From Anaerolineae bacterium (lineage in GTDB: Bacteria; Chloroflexota; Anaerolineae; Aggregatilineales; Phototrophicaceae): a stretch of DNA of 34,901 bases. Positions within the stretch are counted from its first letter, which is position 1; every line of letters starts with the position of its first letter. The position numbers and the translations under genes were made by a program. This document shows positions 7,589 through 25,657 of this stretch, piece by piece. Location: the NCBI GenBank assembly GCA_025454525.1, contig JALOOG010000036.1:1-34901 (forward strand), given 5' to 3'. Below the pieces are notes generated by a model that was not told the DNA's origin, made no database searches, and was given only the letters and a program-made list of their open reading frames with translations.

Positions 7589-8416
7589 ATGGCGATGTGG
7601 CACGATTATCAAGATTATATGCAGCATGATACGGGCAATGTGCAGGGGATGTTACGGGTATTGCCGCAAGTGTATAGCCCGCATTTAGACAATCATCGCG
7701 ATGTGGTGGTCTATTTGCCGCCGTCTTATCATCAGGATGAGACTCGGCGTTATCCGGTCTTGTATATGCAAGATGGCCAAAACCTGTTTGATGAACATAC
7801 CAGCTTTTCGGGTGAATGGTACGCTGATGAGACCTTGAACGCGCTTGCCCAAGAAGGCATTGAGGCGATCGTGGTCGCTTTGCCTAGCACCGAATCGCGG
7901 TTAGATGAATATAGCCCGTTTCATGATCCCAAACATGGTGGGGGGCGTGGTGATGCCTATTTAGCGCTGATCACCGAGACGATCAAGCCGATTGTGGATG
8001 CCGATTTTCGGACGCGCACAGAGCGGACCTGTACCGGAATTTTGGGATCTTCAATGGGCGGATTGATCAGCTTGTACGCCTATTTTCGTCGGCCGGAGGT
8101 GTTCGGATTCGCAGGGGCGCTAAGTCCGGCCTTGTGGTTTGCAGATTACGCGATTTTCAATTATGTGCGTGGGTTGGAACAAGTTCCTCATGGACGGATC
8201 TATTTAGATGCAGGGACTCAAGAGTTGTGTTGTAGTGAGGATGCAAGCGAAAAATCGCGGCGTTACTTGGAGTCGGTGCGACAGATGCGTGACCTGTTAC
8301 GCGATCCGATCAGCCTTCAGTATGTAGAGGCGCACGACGCGGGCCATCGTGAACAGGAATGGGCGCGCCGTCTACCTGAAGCTTTGCGATTTTTGTTAAT
8401 GCCTTGCGTTATGTAA
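7589..8416 (+). CDS. Esterase-family alpha/beta hydrolase (copy 1)
   Basis: 275 residues, no signal peptide. 'R-D-V-V-V-Y-L-P-P-S-Y' and 'Y-P-V-L-Y-M-Q-D-G-Q-N-L-F-D' are hallmarks of the putative esterase family (enterochelin esterase/esterase D-like). The nucleophile elbow G-S-S-M-G-G places Ser155. Asp207 in 'L-D-A-G-T' and His253 in 'D-A-G-H' are likely triad partners. AGGAGG at 7576-7581 sits 7 bases before the ATG. A second gene at 24711-25547 encodes a close paralogue with the same C-terminal W-A-R-R-L-P-E-A-L-R-F-L-L. Substrate is unknown. The 3' end overlaps the convergent response regulator gene by 21 bases, so its last codons and stop lie inside that gene. Confidence 0.82.
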   Translation: MAMWHDYQDYMQHDTGNVQGMLRVLPQVYSPHLDNHRDVVVYLPPSYHQDETRRYPVLYMQDGQNLFDEHTSFSGEWYADETLNALAQEGIEAIVVALPSTESRLDEYSPFHDPKHGGGRGDAYLALITETIKPIVDADFRTRTERTCTGILGSSMGGLISLYAYFRRPEVFGFAGALSPALWFADYAIFNYVRGLEQVPHGRIYLDAGTQELCCSEDASEKSRRYLESVRQMRDLLRDPISLQYVEAHDAGHREQEWARRLPEALRFLLMPCVM

Positions 8417-15624: not shown

Positions 15625-17397
15625 TTACCGATCGATATTGATGATCGCACCGCCTTCGGCTGCCAACGCATAACGAACATCATCCGTTGGGATCTCTAAC
15701 ATCAACACCAAGCGCTCCGCTAAACGGGCAAAGGTGGGCGCGGCGGTCTGACTGGCATAATAGCCATTGCGCGGCCGATCCAACTTGATCAAGATGCTCA
15801 ATTGCGGGTCATCCGCGGGCAAGAATCCGATAAAGGTCACGATCGAAAAGTTCGGATCATATTGCCCGGTCGGGAGCGGTATTTCGGCCGTTCCGGTTTT
15901 ACCGGCCACGGTGTAACCGGGGATGCGTGCTTCCTCATCTAGGCCGTTTTCGACCACCGTCACCATCATGTCGGTGACGATCCGGGACGTTTCACCGGAT
16001 AACACGCGGATCGTAGCGCTAGGTTCGATGTTGGTGATCGTGCCGTCCGCAGCCACAACTTGTTGCACGATGCGCGGCTGCATCATCAAGCCGCCATTGG
16101 CGATCGCGTTAAATGCGCTCAACATTTGCAGCGGCGTAACCGCCACACCTTGCCCATAGCTATTTGCGCCGAGGTCACTGGGACTCCAAGTGGGATCAAT
16201 GTTGGGGATCTTAAGCGTGCCGGGCGCTTCTCCTTGCAGATCGACTCCAGTACGTTGACCAAAGCCAAAGCGGGCCATCGTGCCGTAAAAGCGATCCATG
16301 CCCAACTGCTCTACAGCGATGGTGGCCGCGCCGATATTCAGCGAGTTCACGAGGATCTGCTCCACATCCACCACACCATAGGCTTGCCGATCCCAGTTGC
16401 GGATCTCGCGCCCACCGACATTTAGCGTCCCGGTGTCATTGTAGGTCCAGAGTGGGGTGATCACGCCTTGCTCTAAGCCCGCGGCCACGGTCATCACTTT
16501 AAACACCGATCCGGGTTCATACGGAATGGATACCGCCGGATTTTGGAACAGGCGCGGGTCATCGACCGCCTGATAATTGTTCGGATCATAGGTCGGCGCG
16601 TTGACCATCGCCAAAATATCCCCGTTGCGCGGATTCATCACGATGATCGTGCCGGAGGCCGCATCATATTGTTGTAAGGCGTTGAGTAACTCGGTTTCGG
16701 CCAAAAATTGAATATCGCGGTCTAAGGTCAACACGATGTCTGAACCGCGTAACAGGCGTTCATCGTCTTGCGGCACATCAAACGGGATATAACTCACCTG
16801 TTGTTCGCGTGTTTGCCCGGCGAGGATGTCTTGATAATAGGCTTCGATCCCCTCATAACCGCGAAAATCATCGCGATCCCCTCCCACAAAGCCGATCACC
16901 TGTCCGGTGAGCGCACCTTGTGGATAATAGCGCAAGGGGATCGGTTCAGCGTTGACTCCGCCTAATTCCGCTTGATCCACTTGCCGCCATTTTTCCGGAA
17001 TCACATTGGTCGCGACCAGTTCCCACGGGTTATCGCTGTAGACGATGTTACGCACATTCAACGGGTCTAATTGTAGGATCGCGGTCAATTGTGCGATCGT
17101 GCGATTCGGATCCGAAACCAAATTCGGGCTGATGCCGATGCGGTATTGTAAGGTATTCACCGCCAACGGTTGACCATTGCGATCGTAGATCGTGCCACGG
17201 GCGGCAATTTCACGGCGGGAAGTGCCGTAATTGGCGTTGCGGGTCTGTTCCACATAAGCCGCCACACGCGGATCTTGAGGGGCCTGAAACAAGATCATCC
17301 GCACGATCAAGATCACACAAGCGGCCAGCAAAATCGCCACGATCACCGGCAAGCGTTGGCGTAAAGTCTCTTGTTGTACACTGGTGGTAGCCTGCAT
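15625..17397 (-). CDS. ftsI: Peptidoglycan transpeptidase FtsI/PBP2-type
   Basis: 590 residues from ATG 17397, chosen because AGGAG precedes it; an upstream GTG at 17418 overlaps the ftsL-like stop. One N-terminal membrane helix (about 16-37) is followed by the PBP dimerisation domain ('R-G-T-I-Y-D-R-N-G' at 68-76) and a transpeptidase domain with S297-V-F-K300 (acyl Ser), S352-L-N354 and K500-T-G502. It crosslinks septal peptidoglycan. There is no PASTA domain in this copy. It is in an operon with the ftsL-like gene and rsmH, as in the classical dcw cluster, but mraY and the mur genes do not follow. Confidence 0.93.
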   Translation of the reverse strand: MQATTSVQQETLRQRLPVIVAILLAACVILIVRMILFQAPQDPRVAAYVEQTRNANYGTSRREIAARGTIYDRNGQPLAVNTLQYRIGISPNLVSDPNRTIAQLTAILQLDPLNVRNIVYSDNPWELVATNVIPEKWRQVDQAELGGVNAEPIPLRYYPQGALTGQVIGFVGGDRDDFRGYEGIEAYYQDILAGQTREQQVSYIPFDVPQDDERLLRGSDIVLTLDRDIQFLAETELLNALQQYDAASGTIIVMNPRNGDILAMVNAPTYDPNNYQAVDDPRLFQNPAVSIPYEPGSVFKVMTVAAGLEQGVITPLWTYNDTGTLNVGGREIRNWDRQAYGVVDVEQILVNSLNIGAATIAVEQLGMDRFYGTMARFGFGQRTGVDLQGEAPGTLKIPNIDPTWSPSDLGANSYGQGVAVTPLQMLSAFNAIANGGLMMQPRIVQQVVAADGTITNIEPSATIRVLSGETSRIVTDMMVTVVENGLDEEARIPGYTVAGKTGTAEIPLPTGQYDPNFSIVTFIGFLPADDPQLSILIKLDRPRNGYYASQTAAPTFARLAERLVLMLEIPTDDVRYALAAEGGAIINIDR

Positions 17398-17414
17398 GTG
17401 CGTTCTCCTGTTGT

Positions 17415-17915
17415 TCACCCTTCTGGGTTGCTAAATCCCTCAAATTGCTCGCGCAAAAACGCCAGTTGTTGACGAAACCAATCGCCGAAGGTCTCGGTGT
17501 ATTCAAGGGGGGGCGCTTCATCTTCTGGACGCGGTTGGGCGACGGTCTGTTCCCGGTTGGCGGTGTACCCATCAACAACCAGATACTCAATATCATCCCG
17601 ATCGGCCGGGGTAAAGCCCAACGCTTGAGCGCGGGCCTGCAAATTTGGTAAGCTTTTGAGTTCGGCGATCTCAACGCGCAATTCTTCATTGGTGCGCTCT
17701 AATTCATCGCGTTGTTGGATCAATTCACGCATTTCTAGGCCGCGTGAGGCCTCTAACGCCACTTGTGATAAATACAACGCGCCCATGATCAGCGCTACAA
17801 AGATCCCCAACGTGCCGACGGCGATCACTTGACGCTGTGGCCGCCATCCCGATTGACGGAGCGCATGTTGTACCCAGTTGCGCGAACCCTTCTTAGCATT
17901 TTTGGTCTGATTCAT
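17415..17915 (-). CDS. FtsL/DivIC-like septum protein
   Basis: 166 residues. A basic cytoplasmic N-terminus is followed by one membrane helix (about 30-50), then a coiled coil (about 55-92, 'L-I-Q-Q-R-D-E-L-E-R-T-N-E-E-L-R') and a 'A-Q-A-L-G-F-T-P-A-D-R-D-D-I-E-Y-L-V-V' segment. That is the FtsL signature of a hydrophobic-Gly-hydrophobic step before the last strand. The C-terminal tail is acidic and Trp-containing. In the family these bitopic proteins bridge FtsQ/DivIB and FtsI/FtsW in the divisome. Its place between rsmH and ftsI is the classical ftsL position. The start ATG overlaps the rsmH stop by four bases. Confidence 0.85.
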   Translation of the reverse strand: MNQTKNAKKGSRNWVQHALRQSGWRPQRQVIAVGTLGIFVALIMGALYLSQVALEASRGLEMRELIQQRDELERTNEELRVEIAELKSLPNLQARAQALGFTPADRDDIEYLVVDGYTANREQTVAQPRPEDEAPPLEYTETFGDWFRQQLAFLREQFEGFSNPEG

Positions 17916-18880
17916 CGTGTTGGTTTTACCTTGTTTAGCGTCGGTGGCTTGGGAGCAAGTTTTTCGACCACGCGCAACTTAGCACTACGACTCCGGGCAT
18001 TGTGCGCGATCTCGCTTTCCGACGCGATCATCGGTTTTTTGTTGACCCATTGTACTACGGCCGGCTTTTCTCTCAAAACCATGCCCGGCGGGGAGCGGAT
18101 CTCGGTGCTGGCTTCCCGGAAGGTCTGTTTGACGATCCGATCTTCAAGGCTATGAAAGCTGATCACCGCTAAGCGGCCGCCCGGTCGCAACAGATCGATC
18201 GCGATCGGTAAGGTGGATTCGATCACCGTTAATTCTTCATTGACCGCGATCCGTAAGGCCTGAAAGATTCGGGTGGCGGGGTGGATCGGTTTGCCTTTGC
18301 CATAGTGTTTTTTAGCGGCCCGTTCGATCAGATCGGCTAATTGGCGGGTGGTCTGATACGGACGGCCGGCCACGATCGCACGGGCCAAGCGGCGGCTATC
18401 GTTTTCCTCACCGTAGCGAAAGAAGATCTCCACCAATTCGGACTCGTCCCACGTATTGACCACTTGCGCCGCCGTGAGACGATCGCCTTGTGGATCAAAG
18501 CGCATATCCAAGTCCCCATCCCGCATAAACGAGAAACCGCGTTCTGGGGTATCCAATTGCATGGACGACACACCCAGATCCAACAGAATCGCGTCTACGC
18601 CGTCGTTCCAGCCATGTTGATCGGCATAATCGCGCATTTCGGTATAACTCGCGTGGATCAAGTGCGCTTTTTCACCGTAGATCGCTAGTTTTTCGCGGGC
18701 GATCGCGATCGCATGGGGATCGAGATCAAATGCGAGGATCGCCCCTACGCCCCGCTCCAAGAGGGCGGCGGTATGTCCACCCGCGCCCAACGTGCCGTCG
18801 ATCACCCGTTGGGGGGGATGTGCCGGATTCGGGATCAAGGTGGTGAGGACTTCCTCTAATAGAACTGGGATATGCGCCAT
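17912..18880 (-). CDS. rsmH: 16S rRNA (cytosine-1402-N4) methyltransferase
   Basis: 322 residues from ATG 18880 (MAHIPVLLEEVL), the canonical N-terminus. An upstream in-frame start at 18940 would add 20 unrelated residues. The SAM site shows G-T-L-G-A-G-G-H-T and 'F-D-L-D', then 'D-A-I-L-L-D-L-G-V-S-S-M-Q-L-D' and 'R-G-F-S-F', 'D-M-R-F-D', 'A-V-I-S-F-H-S-L-E-D-R-I-V-K', all hallmarks of MraW/RsmH. It methylates N4 of C1402 in 16S rRNA. No good Shine-Dalgarno precedes it. mraZ is absent; a methyltransferase gene lies 107 bases upstream. Confidence 0.96.
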   Translation of the reverse strand: MAHIPVLLEEVLTTLIPNPAHPPQRVIDGTLGAGGHTAALLERGVGAILAFDLDPHAIAIAREKLAIYGEKAHLIHASYTEMRDYADQHGWNDGVDAILLDLGVSSMQLDTPERGFSFMRDGDLDMRFDPQGDRLTAAQVVNTWDESELVEIFFRYGEENDSRRLARAIVAGRPYQTTRQLADLIERAAKKHYGKGKPIHPATRIFQALRIAVNEELTVIESTLPIAIDLLRPGGRLAVISFHSLEDRIVKQTFREASTEIRSPPGMVLREKPAVVQWVNKKPMIASESEIAHNARSRSAKLRVVEKLAPKPPTLNKVKPTR

Positions 18881-18987
18881 ACGGTTTAGTTGGATTATCC
18901 GACGATGATCTAAGTCTAATCGACAATCAGCACGCGGCAAGTGTGGGATTTTCGATTAAACGCAGCAAGAAGCGTTATAAACCACGA

Positions 18988-19782: not shown

Positions 19783-20691
19783 TTAATCATCGTCGTCATC
19801 ATCATCGTCGTCATGATTTCCACCTCGATTGCCATTGCCATTACTGTTGCCATTTCCGGATCCACCGGGATTCGGTGCCGGAGACTCGCAACGCGCCCGC
19901 CAACCTTGCGCCGGGGCCCATGCGGGCGGCGGATGTGAACAATCCCCCGAATCCCGCCAGATGACCCCATTCGGGCCAGCTTCGATCACATTTTGCGCCG
20001 GATCATCGTTGTTGAGGACGATGGTATCGGCGATCAAGATGCGCCCCTCCGCTAATTCGCCTTCGACGCGCACGAGGTCACCGATGCGTAACACCGCTAG
20101 ATAGGGATCTTCCGCCGCTAAGATCACCGTAAACCCGTAGACCGTCACTCGGTTTAAGTCAATGGCTTCAATTTCCCCTTCAAGGATCACGATCACCGGT
20201 AAGGGTGTCAGCGCGATCGGTTCAATGGCGACAAGCGGCGTGGGGGGAATCAAGGTTAGCGACGGCGCGATCGTGTGTGTGGCGCTAGGGGACGGTGCAA
20301 GGGTATTTGTAGCGCTAGGGGACGGGGCAAGGGTATTTGTGGCGCTAGGGGACGGGGCAATAGTCGTCATGAGTTGCGCGATCTGGACGGTGGGAGTCGG
20401 ATCGGCGGGATCGATCTCCGGCGAAAACATGAACCAGACCACAATCAAGAGAAAAGCGGCCGCGATCGCAACCCCTAGCTGCCAAGGAAAGCGCGGCCGT
20501 AACACGATCGGCGTAGCGCGGACTTGCGCTTCAATCAGCGCACGGGCCGTGGGTGATAAAGTTGGGCGTGGCGCGGATGCTAACCGGAGTGCGGCATTTA
20601 GCAACGGATCATCGCCCGACGGCGGTAACGTGGTTTGATGTGGTGGAAAATGCCGATCGAGATCTTCTGCTAAGGGATTCGGGTCATTCAT
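19783..20691 (-). CDS. Membrane anti-sigma-like protein with DUF5666-like domain and poly-Asp tail
   Basis: 302 residues from ATG 20691 (GGGGAGG site upstream), overlapping the sigma gene by 8 bases. Residues 1-65 are cytoplasmic and rich in Leu/Pro, without a visible zinc-binding anti-sigma motif. One membrane helix lies at about 71-88. The outside part has three near-identical A-P-S-P-S-A-T-N-T-L repeats (112-140), a DUF5666-like beta domain (about 168-235, core L-R-I-G-D-L-V-R-V-E-G-E-L), a W-R-D-S-G-D-C ... P-P-P-A-W-A-P-A-Q-G-W-R module (245-264), a Gly/Asn-rich linker and nine terminal Asp. Anti-sigma function is inferred from topology and coupling to the sigma gene. The C-terminus is paralogous to the protein at 22531-24099. 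Confidence 0.75.
   Translation of the reverse strand: MNDPNPLAEDLDRHFPPHQTTLPPSGDDPLLNAALRLASAPRPTLSPTARALIEAQVRATPIVLRPRFPWQLGVAIAAAFLLIVVWFMFSPEIDPADPTPTVQIAQLMTTIAPSPSATNTLAPSPSATNTLAPSPSATHTIAPSLTLIPPTPLVAIEPIALTPLPVIVILEGEIEAIDLNRVTVYGFTVILAAEDPYLAVLRIGDLVRVEGELAEGRILIADTIVLNNDDPAQNVIEAGPNGVIWRDSGDCSHPPPAWAPAQGWRARCESPAPNPGGSGNGNSNGNGNRGGNHDDDDDDDDD
20281..20360 (-). repeat. 30-bp tandem repeat in the anti-sigma gene
   Basis: Two full 30-bp units (20281-20310, 20311-20340) and 20 bases of a third, nearly identical, encode the A-P-S-P-S-A-T-x-T linker repeats. Unit length is a multiple of three, so copy-number change would keep the frame. Confidence 0.9.
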
Positions 20692-21253
20692 CTGTTTGAC
20701 CTCCCCGTAAATAATGTCGGACTTTGGTCTCGCCAAGGACTTGTGCGAGTTGAAGCAGGGCGCGGTGTTGGATCGATTTCACCGCCGAAACACTCTTATG
20801 GACGATCGTTGCGACCTCTTGATGACTTTTGCGTTCCATGAAGCGTAAAACTAAGATCGTCTGTTGTTCCTCGTTTAATGAAGCGACCGCACGGCGTAAC
20901 ACATCTACCTCTTGCTGATTCAGTAAGCGGCCTTCTGGTGAGGTGTCCTCCTCAAACAGGTTTTCGGTCAATTCGGATTGTGGGCGGCGGTTGGCGCGTC
21001 GCCGAAAATCGATCACCCGTGCGGCGGCGATCCGATACAACCATGCCTCAAACGGGACTCCGGTAAGACGATAGTTTTTCAGGCCTTCGACCATTTTCAC
21101 AAATACCTCGGCGGTGAGGTCTTGCGCGTCCTGTTCAGTTGGGACACGATAATACACATAGCGATAAATGCGATCGACATGCGTCTGATACAAAGTCGCA
21201 ATTGATTCCCGATCCCCCGCTTGCGCTTGTTGAATCAGCCGCTCTAACGACAT
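20684..21253 (-). CDS. ECF-family RNA polymerase sigma factor
   Basis: 189 residues from ATG 21253 (MSLERLIQQAQAGD), with GAGG upstream. An in-frame ATG at 21292 would lie within the predicted promoter. Region 2 runs about 22-90 ('L-Y-Q-T-H-V-D-R-I-Y-R-Y-V-Y-Y-R-V' ... 'E-A-W-L-Y-R-I-A-A-A-R-V-I-D-F-R-R-R'). Region 4 runs about 125-180 ('L-N-E-E-Q-Q-T-I-L-V-L-R-F' ... 'A-V-K-S-I-Q-H-R-A-L'). ECF factors direct RNA polymerase to a small regulon in response to surface signals. The downstream overlapping membrane protein is the probable anti-sigma factor. A GCAAC-N16-CGGT motif upstream suggests autoregulation. Confidence 0.92.
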   Translation of the reverse strand: MSLERLIQQAQAGDRESIATLYQTHVDRIYRYVYYRVPTEQDAQDLTAEVFVKMVEGLKNYRLTGVPFEAWLYRIAAARVIDFRRRANRRPQSELTENLFEEDTSPEGRLLNQQEVDVLRRAVASLNEEQQTILVLRFMERKSHQEVATIVHKSVSAVKSIQHRALLQLAQVLGETKVRHYLRGGQTDE

Positions 21254-21290
21254 ACAACCAACCTCATTCGATGTACTGCTCATCATAAAC

Positions 21291-21315
21291 ACCGCTTAGT
21301 TACGCGCAATGTTGC
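21291..21315 (-). promoter_or_regulatory. Candidate ECF promoter of the sigma operon
   Basis: On the minus strand, GCAACATT begins at 21315. A 16-base gap separates GCAAC (21311-21315) from CGGT (21291-21294), and the sigma ATG lies 37 bases beyond. GCAAC/GGAAC-type -35 boxes are characteristic of ECF factors. The same geometry recurs before the poly-Asp gene. Confidence 0.55.
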
Positions 21316-21338
21316 GACATTAGGTGCAAAATAGCGGT
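21314..21338 (+). promoter_or_regulatory. Candidate ECF promoter of the PASTA gene
   Basis: GCGAC (21314-21318) is followed after 16 bases by CGGT (21335-21338) on the plus strand. Its -35 part overlaps the minus-strand one inside the near-palindrome AATGTTGCGACATT, giving back-to-back promoters. The TTG start is 48 bases downstream. Confidence 0.45.
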
Positions 21339-21362
21339 TGATTCGGTACGCTCTATTTTGCA
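21325..21362. repeat. Perfect 10-bp inverted repeat in the divergent control region
   Basis: TGCAAAATAG (21325-21334) and CTATTTTGCA (21353-21362) are perfect inverted copies 18 bases apart. The dyad covers the predicted -10 region and leader of the PASTA gene, so it may be an operator or a leader hairpin. Confidence 0.7.
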
Positions 21363-21386
21363 TGTTTTCAGTAGAAAGGACATCCC

Positions 21387-22466
21387 TTGAAGTTACGCTT
21401 GTTGTTACTGCTGCTGATCAGTCTAGGGGCTGGATCGGGTTGGGCGCAAAACCAAGACTCGGTGATCCCCGATCTGACGGGATTGAATGTGCCGCAAGCC
21501 ATGGCGACCTTGAATCAAGCCGGATTCGCACTCGGAACAGAACAAAGCGTGTTATGGACGGCCGATCTAGGTGTGCCGGAAAACACGATCACCGCGCAAT
21601 CGATCGCGCCTCAGAGTGCCTCTGCTCCCGGCACCGCTGTGAATGTCACCGTAGCACGCACCCCCAACATCACCCTGATCTATGACGATAACGATTTTAC
21701 ACTGATCAATCGCGCCGGAACGCGGATCGAATTGACGGGACTCGCCTTTAGCACCCTAGACAGCAGCACCGCCGCCACCTTTGATGCGACTCGTTGGGGG
21801 GGGCGTTTGCGCGGGGATTACTGTACGCAAGTATGGTCGGTGGGTCGCAATGAACCGAAACCGATCGACGGGTGTCGGAGCATCAGTTGGTTGACCACCA
21901 ATAACCCCGCCGAACACTTTTGGACGGCCGCTAATGGAGTCCGCACGTTTAATGTTACCCAAGACGGCGTAGAGCGGGCGATCTGTAATGCAGCGCCGCC
22001 CAATTCCCAAGATAGCCCGACCACCTGTGCGTTTTTTGTGGAGGCCGGCGGTCAAGGCGGCTTTGTGCCGTATATTTACCTCGCTTATACCACCGATCAA
22101 CTGGTGATCATCAATCGTTCGACCGATCAATGGATGTATTTGAACGGGACGACGATCTGGAATCAGCATCCGAATCGTGCGGTTTTAGGTGACTCGTTTA
22201 TCCCAGGTCGCCCCCGGTTATACACCGAACGTTTAGAAGTCGCCCGCACGCAACGGATCGCCCCCGGTCAATGTGTCCGGTTTAAATTGTCCGGCATGAC
22301 AGGCGATGAATTACCAGAAGCGTGTTTTGTGGTTGCGACCTTAGAATTACCGGTTGATCAATTGTTTTGGGCTTCAAACTTTGAGATTCAAGGGTTAGAT
22401 ATGGTTCGGCGCTTGTGTCGGGCCGCCACAGCCGACAAATTAACGATCTGCGTGATGCCGCGTTAA
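21387..22466 (+). CDS. Exported PASTA-domain protein
   Basis: 359 residues from a TTG start at 21387, supported by AAAGGA six bases upstream and the signal peptide that follows at once (hydrophobic to G-W-A-Q near residue 21). Residues about 25-92 form one PASTA domain ('V-I-P-D-L-T-G-L-N-V-P-Q-A-M-A-T-L-N-Q-A-G-F' split by the usual turn, ending 'P-G-T-A-V-N-V-T-V-A'). PASTA domains bind muropeptides or beta-lactam-like ligands in other bacteria. The rest is a Trp/Cys-containing beta-rich domain, with strands such as 'F-T-L-I-N-R-A-G-T-R-I-E-L' and 'L-V-I-I-N-R-S-T-D-Q-W' looking like an internal repeat. It is divergent from the sigma operon and shares its promoter motif. Confidence 0.78.
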   Translation: MKLRLLLLLLISLGAGSGWAQNQDSVIPDLTGLNVPQAMATLNQAGFALGTEQSVLWTADLGVPENTITAQSIAPQSASAPGTAVNVTVARTPNITLIYDDNDFTLINRAGTRIELTGLAFSTLDSSTAATFDATRWGGRLRGDYCTQVWSVGRNEPKPIDGCRSISWLTTNNPAEHFWTAANGVRTFNVTQDGVERAICNAAPPNSQDSPTTCAFFVEAGGQGGFVPYIYLAYTTDQLVIINRSTDQWMYLNGTTIWNQHPNRAVLGDSFIPGRPRLYTERLEVARTQRIAPGQCVRFKLSGMTGDELPEACFVVATLELPVDQLFWASNFEIQGLDMVRRLCRAATADKLTICVMPR

Positions 22467-22479
22467 CGAGAAAAAATCA

Positions 22480-22512
22480 ATGACCCGCCCAAAAACGTTG
22501 CGGGCGGGTCAT
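22480..22512 (-). terminator. Terminator of the poly-Asp gene, possibly bidirectional
   Basis: ATGACCCGCCC (22480-22490) pairs perfectly with GGGCGGGTCAT (22502-22512) around 11 bases. On the minus strand it is followed by TGATTTTTTC. It sits between two convergent genes and may also stop the PASTA transcript. Confidence 0.85.
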
Positions 22513-22530
22513 CTCACGCTTGCCTAAGAT

Positions 22531-24099
22531 CTAATCGTCATCGTCGTCATCGTCATCATTACCGCCGCCGCGTCCACGTCCGCCGCGTTCAATGATGATA
22601 ATCACATTGTTTTCGCATTTGCTTCGCCAACCGTGCGCCGGGGCCCAGGGTGGCGGCGGGTTGCCACATTCGCCATCATCGCGCCACACCACATCATCAT
22701 CCCCGATGTAAATATCGATGTCGATGATGATCACCACGATCGCGATCACGATCACCACATCCCCTTCACCGACCAGATCGCCTTCCACGCGGATGATGTC
22801 CCCGATGCGGATCACGGTCAACAACGGGTCATCAGGGTTAAGCTGAATCTCGATGTCATAGATGATGATGATGTTGACATTGATCTCGGTGACCGGGCCT
22901 TCAATGATGATGATCGTGCCGCCTTCATCGTCCTCATCCGACACATAATGCGCTTCATCCGACGCGGTGAAGGTTTCGCCGCCCGCTTGTGCGGTCACCG
23001 TGGCGGTATTGACTTGTGGATCATCGCTTTCGAGGTCAAACGGCCCGATGATACACTCAAAGCTATCCCCGGAGGCTAATTCGGCGGGGATCGTGCATCC
23101 GTCTAAGGCGTATTGGCTATCCGCGAGGGTGAGATTGGTAAACGGCACAGTCCCATCATTGGTTACCACGATCCGGAACGAGACCTGTTCATCATTGGGG
23201 ACGACCAAGCCCGGCGCGGAGTCAGCGGTATACCAGACCCCGCCCACCGAGACCAATTTTTCGATATTGATCAAGGGCAATGAACCGCCGTAGTAATGGG
23301 CGACATCGCTATCGGTGACGGTTTCGCTATCATCTCCGTCGTCATCGTCATCGGTGCTACCGACGGCAGTCGCTGTGACCGTGGCGGTATTGACGTGTTG
23401 ACCTTCAATGACGGCCACATCCGCGACGATACATTGGAAGCTTTCCTCAACTTCTAGCGTAGCGGGGATCTCGCATCCCAGCGTAAACATGCTATCGGTC
23501 AAGCTGATGTTGGTGAGCGGAAAATCGCCGATATTGGTCACTTGCAACAAAAACGAGACCGTCGCACCCAACTCCGCCACGCTACCGGGGGCGATTTGCG
23601 CGTCTAGCCAAGTCGCACCGCCGTCTACAGAAACGGATTTGGTTAATTCGATCGCCGCTTCTGTACATGCGGGGCCAGGCAAGCTGATCGCCTCAAAGCC
23701 GGGGCCGCCTTTGACCGCAACCTGTACATTGCCTTCATCGACTTGTCCACTAAACGACACGGAATAAGTACGGGTTTGATCCATGCGGAGCGGCAGATCC
23801 CATTTGATCCCGGTGATGCCTGTGTTCGGATCAGTGCCGATCGAAACGGCGCTAGACGGGTTAAAGCTGACCACCTCTAAGGCGGGATCACAAGATGGGA
23901 TTTCGATGTTAAAATGGCTTAAATCCGGTGGGACGTTTGTCCCGGCCACGGTGTAGGAAAAGGTGGTGAGATCGGACGCGGCGTTATAGCTCCGACCGCC
24001 ATAACTGACGTTAAAGCCGTTGACGGTGGGTGTCGTTTGCGCGAACACCGCCGGCGCGATCACCAACAAAAAACACAATGTCCATAACCATTTACGCAT
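22531..24099 (-). CDS. Secreted repeat protein with DUF11/CARDB-like domains and poly-Asp tail
   Basis: 522 residues with a signal peptide (cleavage near V-F-A-Q). Residues about 25-145 are one beta domain. Two DUF11-like repeats follow (about 148-268 and 280-385), each with 'V-T-N-x-G-x-x-P-x-T-N-x-x-L-x-D-S' and 'V-N-T-A-T-V-T-A'. An acidic insert (S-T-D-D-D-D-D-G-D-D) lies in the first. The C-terminal part (about 395-522) parallels the anti-sigma protein: R-I-G-D-I-I-R-V-E-G-D-L, then W-R-D-D-G-E-C and P-P-P-P-W-A-P-A-H-G-W-R, a Gly/Arg linker and eight Asp. An unusual run of Ile/Val/Asp alternation precedes the module. It is probably a surface or matrix protein and a target of the neighbouring sigma factor. 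Confidence 0.78.
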   Translation of the reverse strand: MRKWLWTLCFLLVIAPAVFAQTTPTVNGFNVSYGGRSYNAASDLTTFSYTVAGTNVPPDLSHFNIEIPSCDPALEVVSFNPSSAVSIGTDPNTGITGIKWDLPLRMDQTRTYSVSFSGQVDEGNVQVAVKGGPGFEAISLPGPACTEAAIELTKSVSVDGGATWLDAQIAPGSVAELGATVSFLLQVTNIGDFPLTNISLTDSMFTLGCEIPATLEVEESFQCIVADVAVIEGQHVNTATVTATAVGSTDDDDDGDDSETVTDSDVAHYYGGSLPLINIEKLVSVGGVWYTADSAPGLVVPNDEQVSFRIVVTNDGTVPFTNLTLADSQYALDGCTIPAELASGDSFECIIGPFDLESDDPQVNTATVTAQAGGETFTASDEAHYVSDEDDEGGTIIIIEGPVTEINVNIIIIYDIEIQLNPDDPLLTVIRIGDIIRVEGDLVGEGDVVIVIAIVVIIIDIDIYIGDDDVVWRDDGECGNPPPPWAPAHGWRSKCENNVIIIIERGGRGRGGGNDDDDDDDD

Positions 24100-24135: not shown

Positions 24136-24160
24136 ACCGCCTGAAGTGGGGTAACGTTGC
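24136..24160 (-). promoter_or_regulatory. Candidate ECF promoter of the poly-Asp gene
   Basis: Minus strand GCAACGTT with GCAAC at 24156-24160, a 16-base gap, and CGGT at 24136-24139. The start codon lies 36 bases downstream of the CGGT box, almost the same distance as at the sigma gene. Confidence 0.55.
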
Positions 24161-24197: not shown

Positions 24198-24740
24198 ATG
24201 CGTTTATTTATCGCAATTGACCTACTGAACACGGTGAAAGACCAAGTGTTAAACGTCTGTGCAGATTTAAGCGGGGTGCGGTGGGTGCAACCGGCCCAAC
24301 TGCATCTGACCTTACGCTTTATCGGCGAAACTGATCAAGCCGTGGCGATCATCAACGCGCTTCGATCGATCCGATTTGACCCGTTCCCCTTGCAATTACA
24401 GGGCCTCGGTCAATTTCCAGCGAAAGGCGCACCGCGTGTGTTATGGATCGGATGTCAAGCGTCCGAACCATTGACCCACTTGGCCGCCTCAATCGAAACG
24501 ACGCTTACGGAGATCGGATTGCCAAAAGCCGATCAACCCTTCAAACCGCATTTGACGTTAGCTCGCCCCAAATACAGCTTAGATCGAGGCGAACTGCGGC
24601 GTTGGTTGGGCCAGCAGTTCGCGATCGATGCGTTTACGGTAACGGAATTTGTCCTATTTTCTAGCCAACTCGATCCTAAAGGCGCGATCTATCGGCGAGA
24701 AGCGGTCTTTTTAGCGGAGCGGTTGGGGGATCGGCCCTAA
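24198..24740 (+). CDS. thpR: RNA 2',3'-cyclic phosphodiesterase (LigT/ThpR)
   Basis: 180 residues, close to the normal family length. The two catalytic H-x-T-x motifs of the 2H phosphoesterase superfamily are H36-L-T-L (in 'L-H-L-T-L-R-F-I-G-E') and H117-L-T-L (in 'P-F-K-P-H-L-T-L-A-R'), preceded by the start 'M-R-L-F-I-A-I-D-L'. The family opens 2',3'-cyclic phosphate ends of RNA. It is monocistronic. The last 30 bases overlap the 3' end of the convergent esterase gene. No RNA ligase or tRNA-repair partner is adjacent. Confidence 0.93.
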   Translation: MRLFIAIDLLNTVKDQVLNVCADLSGVRWVQPAQLHLTLRFIGETDQAVAIINALRSIRFDPFPLQLQGLGQFPAKGAPRVLWIGCQASEPLTHLAASIETTLTEIGLPKADQPFKPHLTLARPKYSLDRGELRRWLGQQFAIDAFTVTEFVLFSSQLDPKGAIYRREAVFLAERLGDRP

Positions 24741-25547
24741 CAAGAAGCGCAATGCTTCTGGCAGACGACGCGCCCAAGCCGACTCGTGATGCACACCTTT
24801 CGGATCTTCCACATAATGCAACGACTCGCCTTCCACATACCCCTTGTGTTTGAGGATTTCGATCATACGTTGCACACCTTCCAGATAGGCGGCGCGATAA
24901 CGGCTGCTTTTCACCTCGTTATTTCCCGCGTCCAAGTAAAGGCGGCCGGGGGTATACGGAAATTCGCGGATCGAATCATAGATCTTGATGCCCGCTAACC
25001 ACAGCGACGGACTCATCACCATGCCCATCCCGAATACCGATCCTTGTCGGAAATACCCGTACAAGCTGATTAAGCCGCCCATGGATGATCCGCCGATGCC
25101 CGTATTGAGGCGATCTGGCAACGTCCGAAAAGAGCGATCGATTAAAGGTTTAACCGTTTTGGTGATAAATTGCAGATACAGATCGCCTTTACCACCGCCC
25201 CAACGGGTCTCAAACGGGCTATATTCTGCGATGCGATGTTCCCCCGTGTTCGGGAGTCCGACAACGATCGCTTCGATCCCGTCGCTTTCGGCTAATGCCT
25301 CCATGGTTTCGTCTACTTGCCATTCTTCCACATAGCTCAAAGCTTGATCGAAAAGATTTTGTCCGTCATGAAAGTACAAGACCGGATAACGGCGGTTTGT
25401 CACCCCGTAAGACGGCGGTAGATACACATACAGATCGCGTGTGTTGTCTAATTGTGGGCTATAGACCGCACGCGCAACCTGCAAGGTACCGACCACCGAA
25501 TGATGAGCGGATGTTTTTTCCGCCAAATAATCTTGCCACGTTGTCAT
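24711..25547 (-). CDS. Esterase-family alpha/beta hydrolase (copy 2)
   Basis: 278 residues from ATG 25547 (GGAGA upstream; an ATG at 25601 lacks a site). It is a paralogue of the protein at 7589-8416 along its whole length, sharing 'V-Y-L-P-P-S-Y', 'D-G-Q-N-L-F-D', 'G-G-S-S-M-G-G-L-I-S-L-Y' and 'W-A-R-R-L-P-E-A-L-R-F-L-L'. Predicted triad: Ser155, Asp206 in 'L-D-A-G-N' and His253 or His254 in 'G-V-H-H-E'. It is cytoplasmic, with no signal peptide. It differs from copy 1 mainly in surface stretches (for example V-K-S-S-R in place of the Cys-Cys segment). Substrate is unknown. Confidence 0.82.
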   Translation of the reverse strand: MTTWQDYLAEKTSAHHSVVGTLQVARAVYSPQLDNTRDLYVYLPPSYGVTNRRYPVLYFHDGQNLFDQALSYVEEWQVDETMEALAESDGIEAIVVGLPNTGEHRIAEYSPFETRWGGGKGDLYLQFITKTVKPLIDRSFRTLPDRLNTGIGGSSMGGLISLYGYFRQGSVFGMGMVMSPSLWLAGIKIYDSIREFPYTPGRLYLDAGNNEVKSSRYRAAYLEGVQRMIEILKHKGYVEGESLHYVEDPKGVHHESAWARRLPEALRFLLGPIPQPLR

Positions 25548-25657
25548 GGTTGTTGATCTCCATGCTATCAATAGTTCTATGATAGGGGAGATCAGGGGCA
25601 TTTGTAAACGTTGCTGATGTGGTTCTAAGACCGATCTTTCGGGTGGTTACTAGTGTG

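Follow-up and report, generated by a model that had tools for sequence, protein, structure and literature searches.

How does a bacterium that exports a surface protein learn whether that protein has been installed? The question is raised by a 34,901 nt contig of an Anaerolineae bacterium (GenBank assembly GCA_025454525.1, contig JALOOG010000036.1; Chloroflexota, Aggregatilineales, Phototrophicaceae), called the window here. It is a complete contig (G000:C21); the genome, 97% complete, comprises 230 contigs and 5.24 Mb. An extracytoplasmic function (ECF) sigma factor gene in it adjoins the gene of a putative membrane anti-sigma factor, whose C-terminus recurs on a secreted protein encoded nearby, which we call the cargo. 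Together with a second, unrelated pair of like design in this genome, the sequences suggest that the cells sense their surface through a sensor bearing the tail of the surface protein itself. To our knowledge, the way in which envelopes are built and monitored in Chloroflexota is largely unknown.

The sigma factor open reading frame (ORF; 20684..21292, minus strand, as are all features below unless marked plus) contains sigma-70 regions 2 and 4 (Pfam Sigma70_r2, 60.4 bits; Sigma70_r4, 46.2 bits), and its 3' end is overlapped by the anti-sigma ORF (19783..20736; 317 residues as listed). Given the position of the promoter described below and the lengths of homologues, both listed starts are probably too far upstream, the true ones probably being ATG codons at 21253 (189 aa) and 20691 (302 aa), respectively. 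Judged from its sequence, the product of 19783..20736 is an anti-sigma factor: its gene overlaps that of an ECF sigma factor, it has one membrane span, and its N-terminus matches a profile of 15 other such N-termini, built with the window excluded, at E 1e-18. By hydropathy the single clear span covers residues 87-105 (20422..20478) with no N-terminal signal, as expected of a protein with an inner N-terminus and an outer C-terminal domain, and a weaker second peak (residues 167-185) enters the first strand of the shared block. The cargo (22531..24099, 522 aa) begins with a hydrophobic signal and continues through DUF7507/DUF11-type repeats to the same block; no enzyme domain was matched in it by Pfam.

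When the two proteins are compared over their whole lengths by BLASTP, the sole significant alignment joins their C-termini (130 aa, 38% identity, 75/130 positives, E 3e-13), bearing out a first-pass annotation that had placed the two ORFs at these positions and described them as alike at the C-terminus and different elsewhere. Both contain the strand R-I-G-D-[LI]-[VI]-R-V-E-G, a W-R-D-x-G-x-C ... P-P-P-x-W-A-P-A-x-G-W-R-x-[KR]-C stretch, a Gly-rich linker and a final run of Asp (nine in the anti-sigma factor, eight in the cargo), all as that annotation had read them. In the anti-sigma factor, a predicted, DUF5666-like oligonucleotide/oligosaccharide-binding (OB) fold (residues 180-256, 19969..20199; AlphaFold2 and VIA-align) is followed by the Cys/Trp/Pro loop (W-R-D ... 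C; residues 260-283, 19888..19959) and a Gly/Asn-rich linker with the D9 tail (19786..19887). The corresponding parts of the cargo are an Ile/Val-rich OB-type block (residues 395-470, 22690..22917; recognised by BLASTP, profile and composition), the loop (residues 472-495, 22615..22686) and the linker with the D8 tail (22534..22614). The label 'DUF5666-like' is correct but weak for the window itself: the anti-sigma factor scores 20.1 bits, below the gathering cut-off of 27 for DUF5666 (PF18914), and the cargo has no match to that family up to E 1. Some relatives do pass the cut-off, such as the secreted protein of the second locus discussed below (118.7 bits). Two Cys, two Pro and two Trp are invariant in an alignment of 17 blocks; in a wider alignment of 27, one of these residues is absent from a few rows. 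From those 27 rows AlphaFold2 built a small beta barrel with a mean predicted local distance difference test score (pLDDT) of 84.6, block means being 66-73 before the loop and 76-84 within it. VIA-align superposes residues 1-77 of the model on the OB-folds of PriB and SSB (Z up to 10.6, 61 residues, root-mean-square deviation 1.4), and Foldseek matches are weaker (best E 3e-3). The block is accordingly assigned a predicted OB-fold of five-strand barrel topology, past which the fold searches gave no functional hint.

Where the block occurs bears on whether the pairing is an accident of one genome. A 106-residue query of the anti-sigma block matched 18/41 near genomes, its own included (E <= 0.01), and an alignment of blocks (A2) found whole or partial matches in 44/154 genomes, representing 24/61 genera, of the window's order (E <= 1e-3), many of them spanning the OB part or the loop alone. 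Matches occur in 27/396 genomes of a class sample, 11 of these from the window's order, and in 5/400 genomes of a phylum sample searched with alignment A3; both samples include some members of the order, and 12 candidates per genome were scored. No class-sample match outside the order extends past profile position 84, where the loop starts (E <= 1e-3), and the three phylum matches outside it align to position 89 at most, in proteins that upon reading have no loop. A search of the module across Chloroflexota had been recommended by the first-pass annotation, which would have abandoned a sigma link for a module widespread in unrelated secreted proteins; across the class and phylum samples the Cys/Trp loop was not met outside the order at E <= 1e-3, and the block recurs beside related sigma genes. 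Among 25 loci from named genomes, 23 belong by title to Chloroflexi, Anaerolineae or subgroups, and another is a 15-aa match in a Phycisphaerales metagenome-assembled genome. Locus L100 (JAHHHY010000016.1) is labelled Pleurocapsa minor, a label that probably reflects a culture partner or a wrong bin; the locus probably belongs to G015, from the window's family, as its contig C1.

We read 61 regions, the window included, all chosen for their block matches, so that counts over them are not unbiased. These regions hold 68 block-bearing ORFs, of which 22 lie immediately 3' of a related sigma gene and 46 do not. The two classes are set by position alone; among the second are ORFs truncated at contig ends, the kinase-like ORF of L150 and L144:2676-3989, an anti-sigma factor to judge by its N-terminus. 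From these 68 ORFs, 47 (full blocks only) entered the tree described below and 60 the promoter counts, eight with short upstreams being dropped. The sigma-adjacent carriers have a membrane span located between residues 56 and 147, and among the other carriers whose 5' end lies inside the contig a hydrophobic segment starts within the first 45 residues in 35/38 (a hand count, two cases being doubtful). A second block carrier is also present in 18/22 genomes that have an anti-sigma carrier. A run of at least four Asp no more than three residues from the C-terminus is found, among ORFs with complete 3' ends, in 8/21 anti-sigma factors and 15/45 other block-bearing ORFs, and in 0/444 of these regions' remaining ORFs with 150 aa or more. 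The one C-terminal block is borne by unrelated scaffolds, including DUF11 repeats, DUF5666 repeats and a GYWANHP-type protein. Some secreted members (L043:4844-7780, L057:5644-7206, L142:7852-8658, L144:209-1339) end in a basic two-Cys segment of the CKLTGFGNGxIRxKC type with a Lys/Arg/Ser tail, which replaces, or comes after, the Cys/Trp loop. In the window genome, L150:6438-7883 (G000:C179) carries a DUF5666-type segment on a protein that by eye starts like a Ser/Thr kinase.

In a tree of the 47 full blocks, which is weak and whose bootstrap had not settled, the two kinds of carrier are clustered but not separate, with 7 label changes compared with 13.6 in shuffles. Seven of the 16 anti-sigma blocks form an all-anti-sigma group (support 68/87; inner six 96/86), and the remaining nine are unresolved among secreted-type blocks. 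A fresh duplication of the block in the window genome was considered and rejected, because its two blocks fall in different groups, the anti-sigma block with anti-sigma ones and the cargo block with secreted-type ones; the pair in G015 is an exception, its blocks being sisters (99/88). Secreted-type blocks are also richer in Ile+Val (median 0.31, n=31, vs 0.24 for anti-sigma blocks, n=16), with the difference in that direction in 12/13 genomes. Regions from other families of the class, likewise chosen for matches, extend the picture: six picked for DUF5666-type matches each include a sigma gene of this type. The anti-sigma factor and a secreted DUF5666-type protein both have Asn/Asp/Ser-rich tails in L181-L183, the anti-sigma factor of L184 has repeated DUF5666-type segments and ends in GMGMGM, and those of L185 and L186 have Asp/Met/Tyr tails. 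Since the loop was not seen outside the order in the class and phylum samples and tail pairing is found in other families of the class, the Cys/Trp loop seems order-specific, and the pairing of sensor and cargo appears, from these sequences, to be older than the loop.

If sensor and cargo belong to one circuit, their genes might share a promoter, and a reading of upstream sequences gave a bipartite ECF-type motif with consensus GYRACRTT-N13-CGGTnTA. In the window GYRACRTT-N13-CGGT precedes three genes as candidate ECF promoters: that of the sigma/anti-sigma operon (GCAACATT-N13-CGGT, 21291..21315), back to back with that of a divergent gene for a secreted PASTA protein (GCGACATT-N13-CGGT, 21314..21338, plus), and that of the cargo gene (GCAACGTT-N13-CGGT, 24136..24160). 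The window genome has 10 exact sites, and reversing the pattern gives 8; these promoters account for three of the 10, one more lies 95 bases ahead of a long ORF, and the rest of the other seven were not placed with certainty. A loose regular expression finds the motif upstream of 14/27 sigma, 4/20 PASTA, 10/38 other-block and 0/22 anti-sigma genes, and of 4/432 controls. A weight matrix, with its threshold set at 2% of controls (9/432 control ORFs), finds 18/27, 6/20, 17/38 and 0/22, respectively; these upstreams, those of the window among them, had also served to spot the motif by eye, and at scoring each gene's own locus was left out and related loci were kept. The anti-sigma genes are presumably co-transcribed with the sigma genes, hence the lack of a motif of their own. 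In a fresh set of 20 PASTA upstreams, 7 exceed the threshold, comprising 3/11 that lie more than 10 kb from, or off the contig of, listed block matches and 4/9 near an OB-part match. Fisher values, which ignore relatedness, are 2e-19 for sigma, 1e-5 for PASTA and 1e-14 for other-block genes, and 1e-6 for the fresh PASTA set. Some control matches resemble regulon members, being secreted proteins with Gly/Asn-rich tails that adjoin sigma/anti-sigma genes in L052, L056 and L127. Four proteins encoded beside sigma genes (L056:2273-3340, L127:9552-10475, L052:9629-10528, L139:5377-6525) have a common segment like HPVAxxIAxxFGVxxxxVxxxHCxGxGFGxIxRA, which received no Pfam name in the three that were scanned, and their tails (Gly/Asn, or APGNS-like) are similar to anti-sigma tails.

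The PASTA protein itself (21387..22466, plus) has PASTA and predicted lamin-tail-like Ig domains (Pfam PASTA, 33.2 bits; model pLDDT 87.9), for which Foldseek finds PASTA and lamin-tail Ig counterparts and the fold searches no further functional hint. PASTA domains bind peptidoglycan. At E <= 1e-60, a threshold picked after seeing the data, the full-length protein is present in 36/154 genomes of the order, all 36 among the 44 with the block (Fisher 1e-27 by genome and 1e-11 by genus, relatedness ignored), and in several of these genomes the PASTA gene and the block match lie on separate contigs. L053:1924-3756 and L126:2685-4523 match the PASTA profile in part (second domain), the L053 ORF being Ser/Thr kinase-like by eye.

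A second locus of the window genome repeats the design with another module. Of the 24 sigma loci over the cut-off, 23 are recognised by profiles built for this analysis; five of these are long and housekeeping-like, four have no next ORF on the same strand, and only two show the sensor/cargo design. The second of these is on contig C156, where the gene of a secreted protein with five DUF5666 domains comes first, that of a sigma factor next and that of an anti-sigma factor last; the secreted protein and the anti-sigma factor both end in LysM plus an acidic tail. Their LysM domains score 38.2 (secreted) and 38.9 bits (anti-sigma), and the two proteins align by BLASTP at E 4e-13. LysM is a domain that binds wall glycan. 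The C156 anti-sigma factor as query matches 86/154 genomes of the order (E <= 1e-10), many by LysM or the N-terminal part only. In 21 LysM regions (20 likewise chosen for matches, plus C156), a sigma gene is followed by that of a LysM anti-sigma factor in 19/21, and an additional LysM protein with a tail is present in 14/21. The promoter of the OB system was considered for these loci and rejected: one upstream is just over the threshold (the L217 secreted gene, with an irregular spacer) and the others are below it. Upstream of four LysM genes away from sigma genes (L249, L250, L253, L266), AACYTT-N14-GTCG boxes are seen by eye; such a pair would suit a second, insulated sigma factor.

The low-complexity tails of these pairs were also compared. 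In the OB system, with loop-bearing partners, 16 pairs from 15 genomes have a mean dipeptide cosine of 0.42 compared with 0.30 (11/5000 shuffles as high); tripeptides give 14/5000 and single residues 210/5000. LysM tails from 14 loci reach 0.70 compared with 0.51, or 0.67 compared with 0.46 with one locus per genus (9), and 0/5000 shuffles are as high in either case, although just 3/14 loci (3/9 by genus) have a tail that is closest to its own partner. Tails are closer within a system than across systems in 10/10 genomes that have both; 9/9 is the safer count, leaving out G083, whose comparison uses a probably mislabelled anti-sigma factor, and pairs of the same system are not always on the same contig (G021, G083). 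Because within-system tails are closer than cross-system ones, a genome-wide tail habit or composition, or relatedness, was set aside as unlikely to be the sole cause of the matching; gene conversion within a locus, or a local habit of repeat expansion, could still produce it. The first-pass annotation had proposed that the sensor's outer part mimics or competes with the secreted product, giving feedback on surface assembly or on a cation bound by the Asp tail. Its link between sensor and cargo gains from the recurring pairing, the motif at sigma and cargo genes, the repetition of the design with LysM and the tails matched within systems. The cation part gains no such support, and it is weakened as a general rule by tail chemistry that varies between genomes, many matched tails being GMGMGM, Asn/Asp, Gly/Asn or Arg/Asp/Ser in place of poly-Asp; what is conserved seems to be the match between tails, not Asp as such.

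We propose a self-regulated ECF sigma/anti-sigma switch in which the membrane anti-sigma factor wears the same docking block as the secreted protein that the switch turns on, thereby probing that protein's installation, and hold this to be about as likely right as wrong. The sigma factor would read GYRACRTT-N13-CGGT at its own operon and at the PASTA and cargo genes, the PASTA protein being placed in the regulon by its promoter. The block would dock to an envelope site, either wall glycan or the PASTA protein, and its copy on the anti-sigma factor would act as a probe of that site. Where sites are free or changed the probe would bind, and the anti-sigma factor would be inactivated, probably by proteolysis; the sigma factor, released from control, would have more cargo and PASTA protein made, and cargo filling the sites would exclude the probe, a feedback by occupancy through which the cell would keep track of how well its surface protein has been put in place. 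This proposal must be tempered by several observations that weigh against it. Four of the 22 genomes with an anti-sigma carrier (G023, G056, G057, G072) have no second carrier in the regions read, G023 and G072 holding other partial block matches. The motif is absent upstream of 9/27 sigma, 21/38 other-block and 14/20 PASTA genes, as well as 13/20 in the fresh PASTA set; some of these genes sit inside operons or have misplaced starts. Eight block genomes have no full PASTA protein, and the PASTA profile also has shorter matches, chiefly in its second domain, in many genomes where the block is absent (79/154 genomes match at E <= 1e-10).

The matched tails invite a reading without any third ligand, closest to the first-pass idea, in which the anti-sigma ectodomain binds directly to the secreted protein, through contact between their blocks or between their tails, and is co-assembled with it or titrated by it. 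Anti-sigma and partner tails are indeed alike in both the OB and LysM systems, more so within a system than across systems in 10/10 genomes, and secreted-type blocks are rich in Ile and Val. The OB test is weaker with single residues (210/5000), however, a LysM anti-sigma factor's own partner ranks first in only 3/14 loci, gene conversion or local repeat expansion could produce the matching, and LysM has a glycan ligand that makes homotypic contact unnecessary; on balance we find such direct binding unlikely. A further reading that we rate as rather doubtful makes the matched disordered tails a pairing code: an anti-sigma factor would recognise its own partner, or share its assembly, by tail chemistry, so that one envelope could house several circuits, each with its own module (OB/Cys/Trp, LysM), and no cross-talk between them, and the anti-sigma copy would be an assembly-poor decoy that meters installed cargo. 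Domain shuffling without feedback would need neither, surface proteins and anti-sigma ectodomains drawing on one stock of domains and tails and the sigma factor responding to a signal that has nothing to do with the cargo. DUF5666-type domains and low-complexity tails do occur on surface proteins elsewhere in the class, and the design is seen in just 2/23 sigma-type loci of the window genome. That account sits poorly with a promoter motif common to sigma, PASTA and cargo genes, with tails that pair by system within a genome and with poly-Asp ends in 0/444 control ORFs, and we judge it quite unlikely.

The presence of one block on unrelated scaffolds could also mean that block and tail form a tag, recognised by membrane machinery for the installation or modification of surface proteins, with the anti-sigma factor wearing the tag and reporting the machinery's load. 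Candidates for such a machine adjoin many secreted members: a multi-transmembrane family, here TMP (D-E-x4-H-E, E-E-x2-E-M), and a membrane spermidine-synthase-like protein. TMP is found at E <= 1e-40, a threshold picked after seeing the data, in 28/154 genomes, 23 with the block, and also in 3/21 LysM regions (L251, L266, L267); the synthase-like protein is found at E <= 1e-30 in 14/154, 12 with the block. Both were rejected as the dedicated sorting enzyme of this locus, for the window genome has no TMP at E <= 1e-5 and no synthase-like protein at E <= 1e-30, making them unlikely to read a tag here. C-terminal sorting tags such as PEP-CTERM and LPXTG combine a short motif with a hydrophobic helix and a basic end, and the genome encodes an enzyme dedicated to them. 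The block is followed by no hydrophobic C-terminal helix of the kind that sortase and exosortase tags have, the protein ending in Gly/Asp, and a tag of either kind is thus not what we find. We consider the tag account improbable, and keep the occupancy switch as our preferred reading.

Several known systems resemble this switch in part. In Clostridium (Acetivibrio) thermocellum, SigI drives its own operon and extracellular enzymes, and the outer domain of RsgI, which senses polysaccharide, is of a kind found on those induced enzymes (a carbohydrate-binding module, GH10 or PA14), according to the parts of PMC4711584 that describe them. Like RsgI in that description, the window anti-sigma factor is a membrane protein with a C-terminal outer domain of the regulon's type; judged from the block and the promoter motif, its outer domain is common to candidate regulon proteins. 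Unlike SigI the window sigma factor is of the ECF type, and unlike RsgI the outer part is an OB/Cys/Trp block, or LysM in the second system, with a matched low-complexity tail and, in the window, an accompanying PASTA protein. Pfam holds an RsgI model, yet the N-terminal sigma-binding domain of RsgI was not matched, DUF5666 being the only Pfam family found for the anti-sigma factor up to E 1. The likeness stands as one of working, with membership in the RsgI family failing on the N-terminal domain and the sigma type. In Streptomyces, a BldN-type ECF sigma factor with an adjacent anti-sigma gene (rsbN) controls chaplins and rodlins, as given in passages of PMC4255298; the window locus parallels these in its ECF sigma factor, adjoining anti-sigma gene and secreted surface protein as candidate output, and those passages do not describe a domain common to RsbN and chaplins. 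The best NCBIfam model for the window sigma factor is the BldN family (TIGR02952, 139.6 bits, among 118 models up to E 1), at a score below the curated cut-off of 206.45, which places it outside that family. For the type IX secretion system, passages of PMC7712824 describe PorA, which has the C-terminal domain of the cargo and acts upstream of the ECF sigma factor responsible for producing the secretion machine (PorXY-SigP); feedback is suggested by its authors. A two-component system relays the signal there, whereas in the window the anti-sigma factor itself carries the cargo domain. By analogy, the nearest precedents are RsgI in working, BldN/RsbN in sigma type and surface output, and PorA in cargo-domain feedback.

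On our best reading, then, the principle is a known one, an RsgI-like sensor with its effector's binding module, and the matched low-complexity tails are new. The titles listed for literature on anti-sigma factors, DUF5666, LysM and Chloroflexota name no such sensor/cargo system, which is no proof that it is unpublished. If true, the proposal would give an order of Chloroflexota a readable logic, the domain of an anti-sigma factor naming the surface protein it watches, and would carry the RsgI principle past polysaccharide-degrading Clostridia, with matched low-complexity tails added. Such tails suggest that the pair is under selection or that gene conversion has recurred, and the promoter motif would let parts of a regulon be read from the genomes of uncultured bacteria.

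Other genes of these regions merit a brief record. TMP-family ORFs L046:9982-10746, L044:6681-7958, L043:2542-4773 and 12 more have no Pfam match and adjoin secreted block or LysM proteins; they conserve DExxxxHE and EExxEM, and some are fused to a membrane spermidine-synthase-like domain or an apparent remnant of one. A small membrane protein of ~180 aa lies between synthase-like and sigma genes in L041:10181-10705, L053:9121-9690 and L126:9909-10478, with no Pfam match in the two that were scanned (the L126 locus as its named copy, L103), and L184:744-1322 resembles it by eye. In G015, L055:7349-9088, between a secreted block gene and a sigma gene, encodes a protein like HTTM and vitamin-K-dependent gamma-carboxylase (Pfam, 306 and 127 bits). 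Near the sigma operon of the window, at 15625-18940, are genes that we take from their sequences to be a division and wall cluster (penicillin-binding protein, FtsL-like, RsmH). Two similar esterase-like proteins, 16 kb apart at 7589-8416 and 24711-25601 of the window, both contain YLPPSY and GSSMGG.

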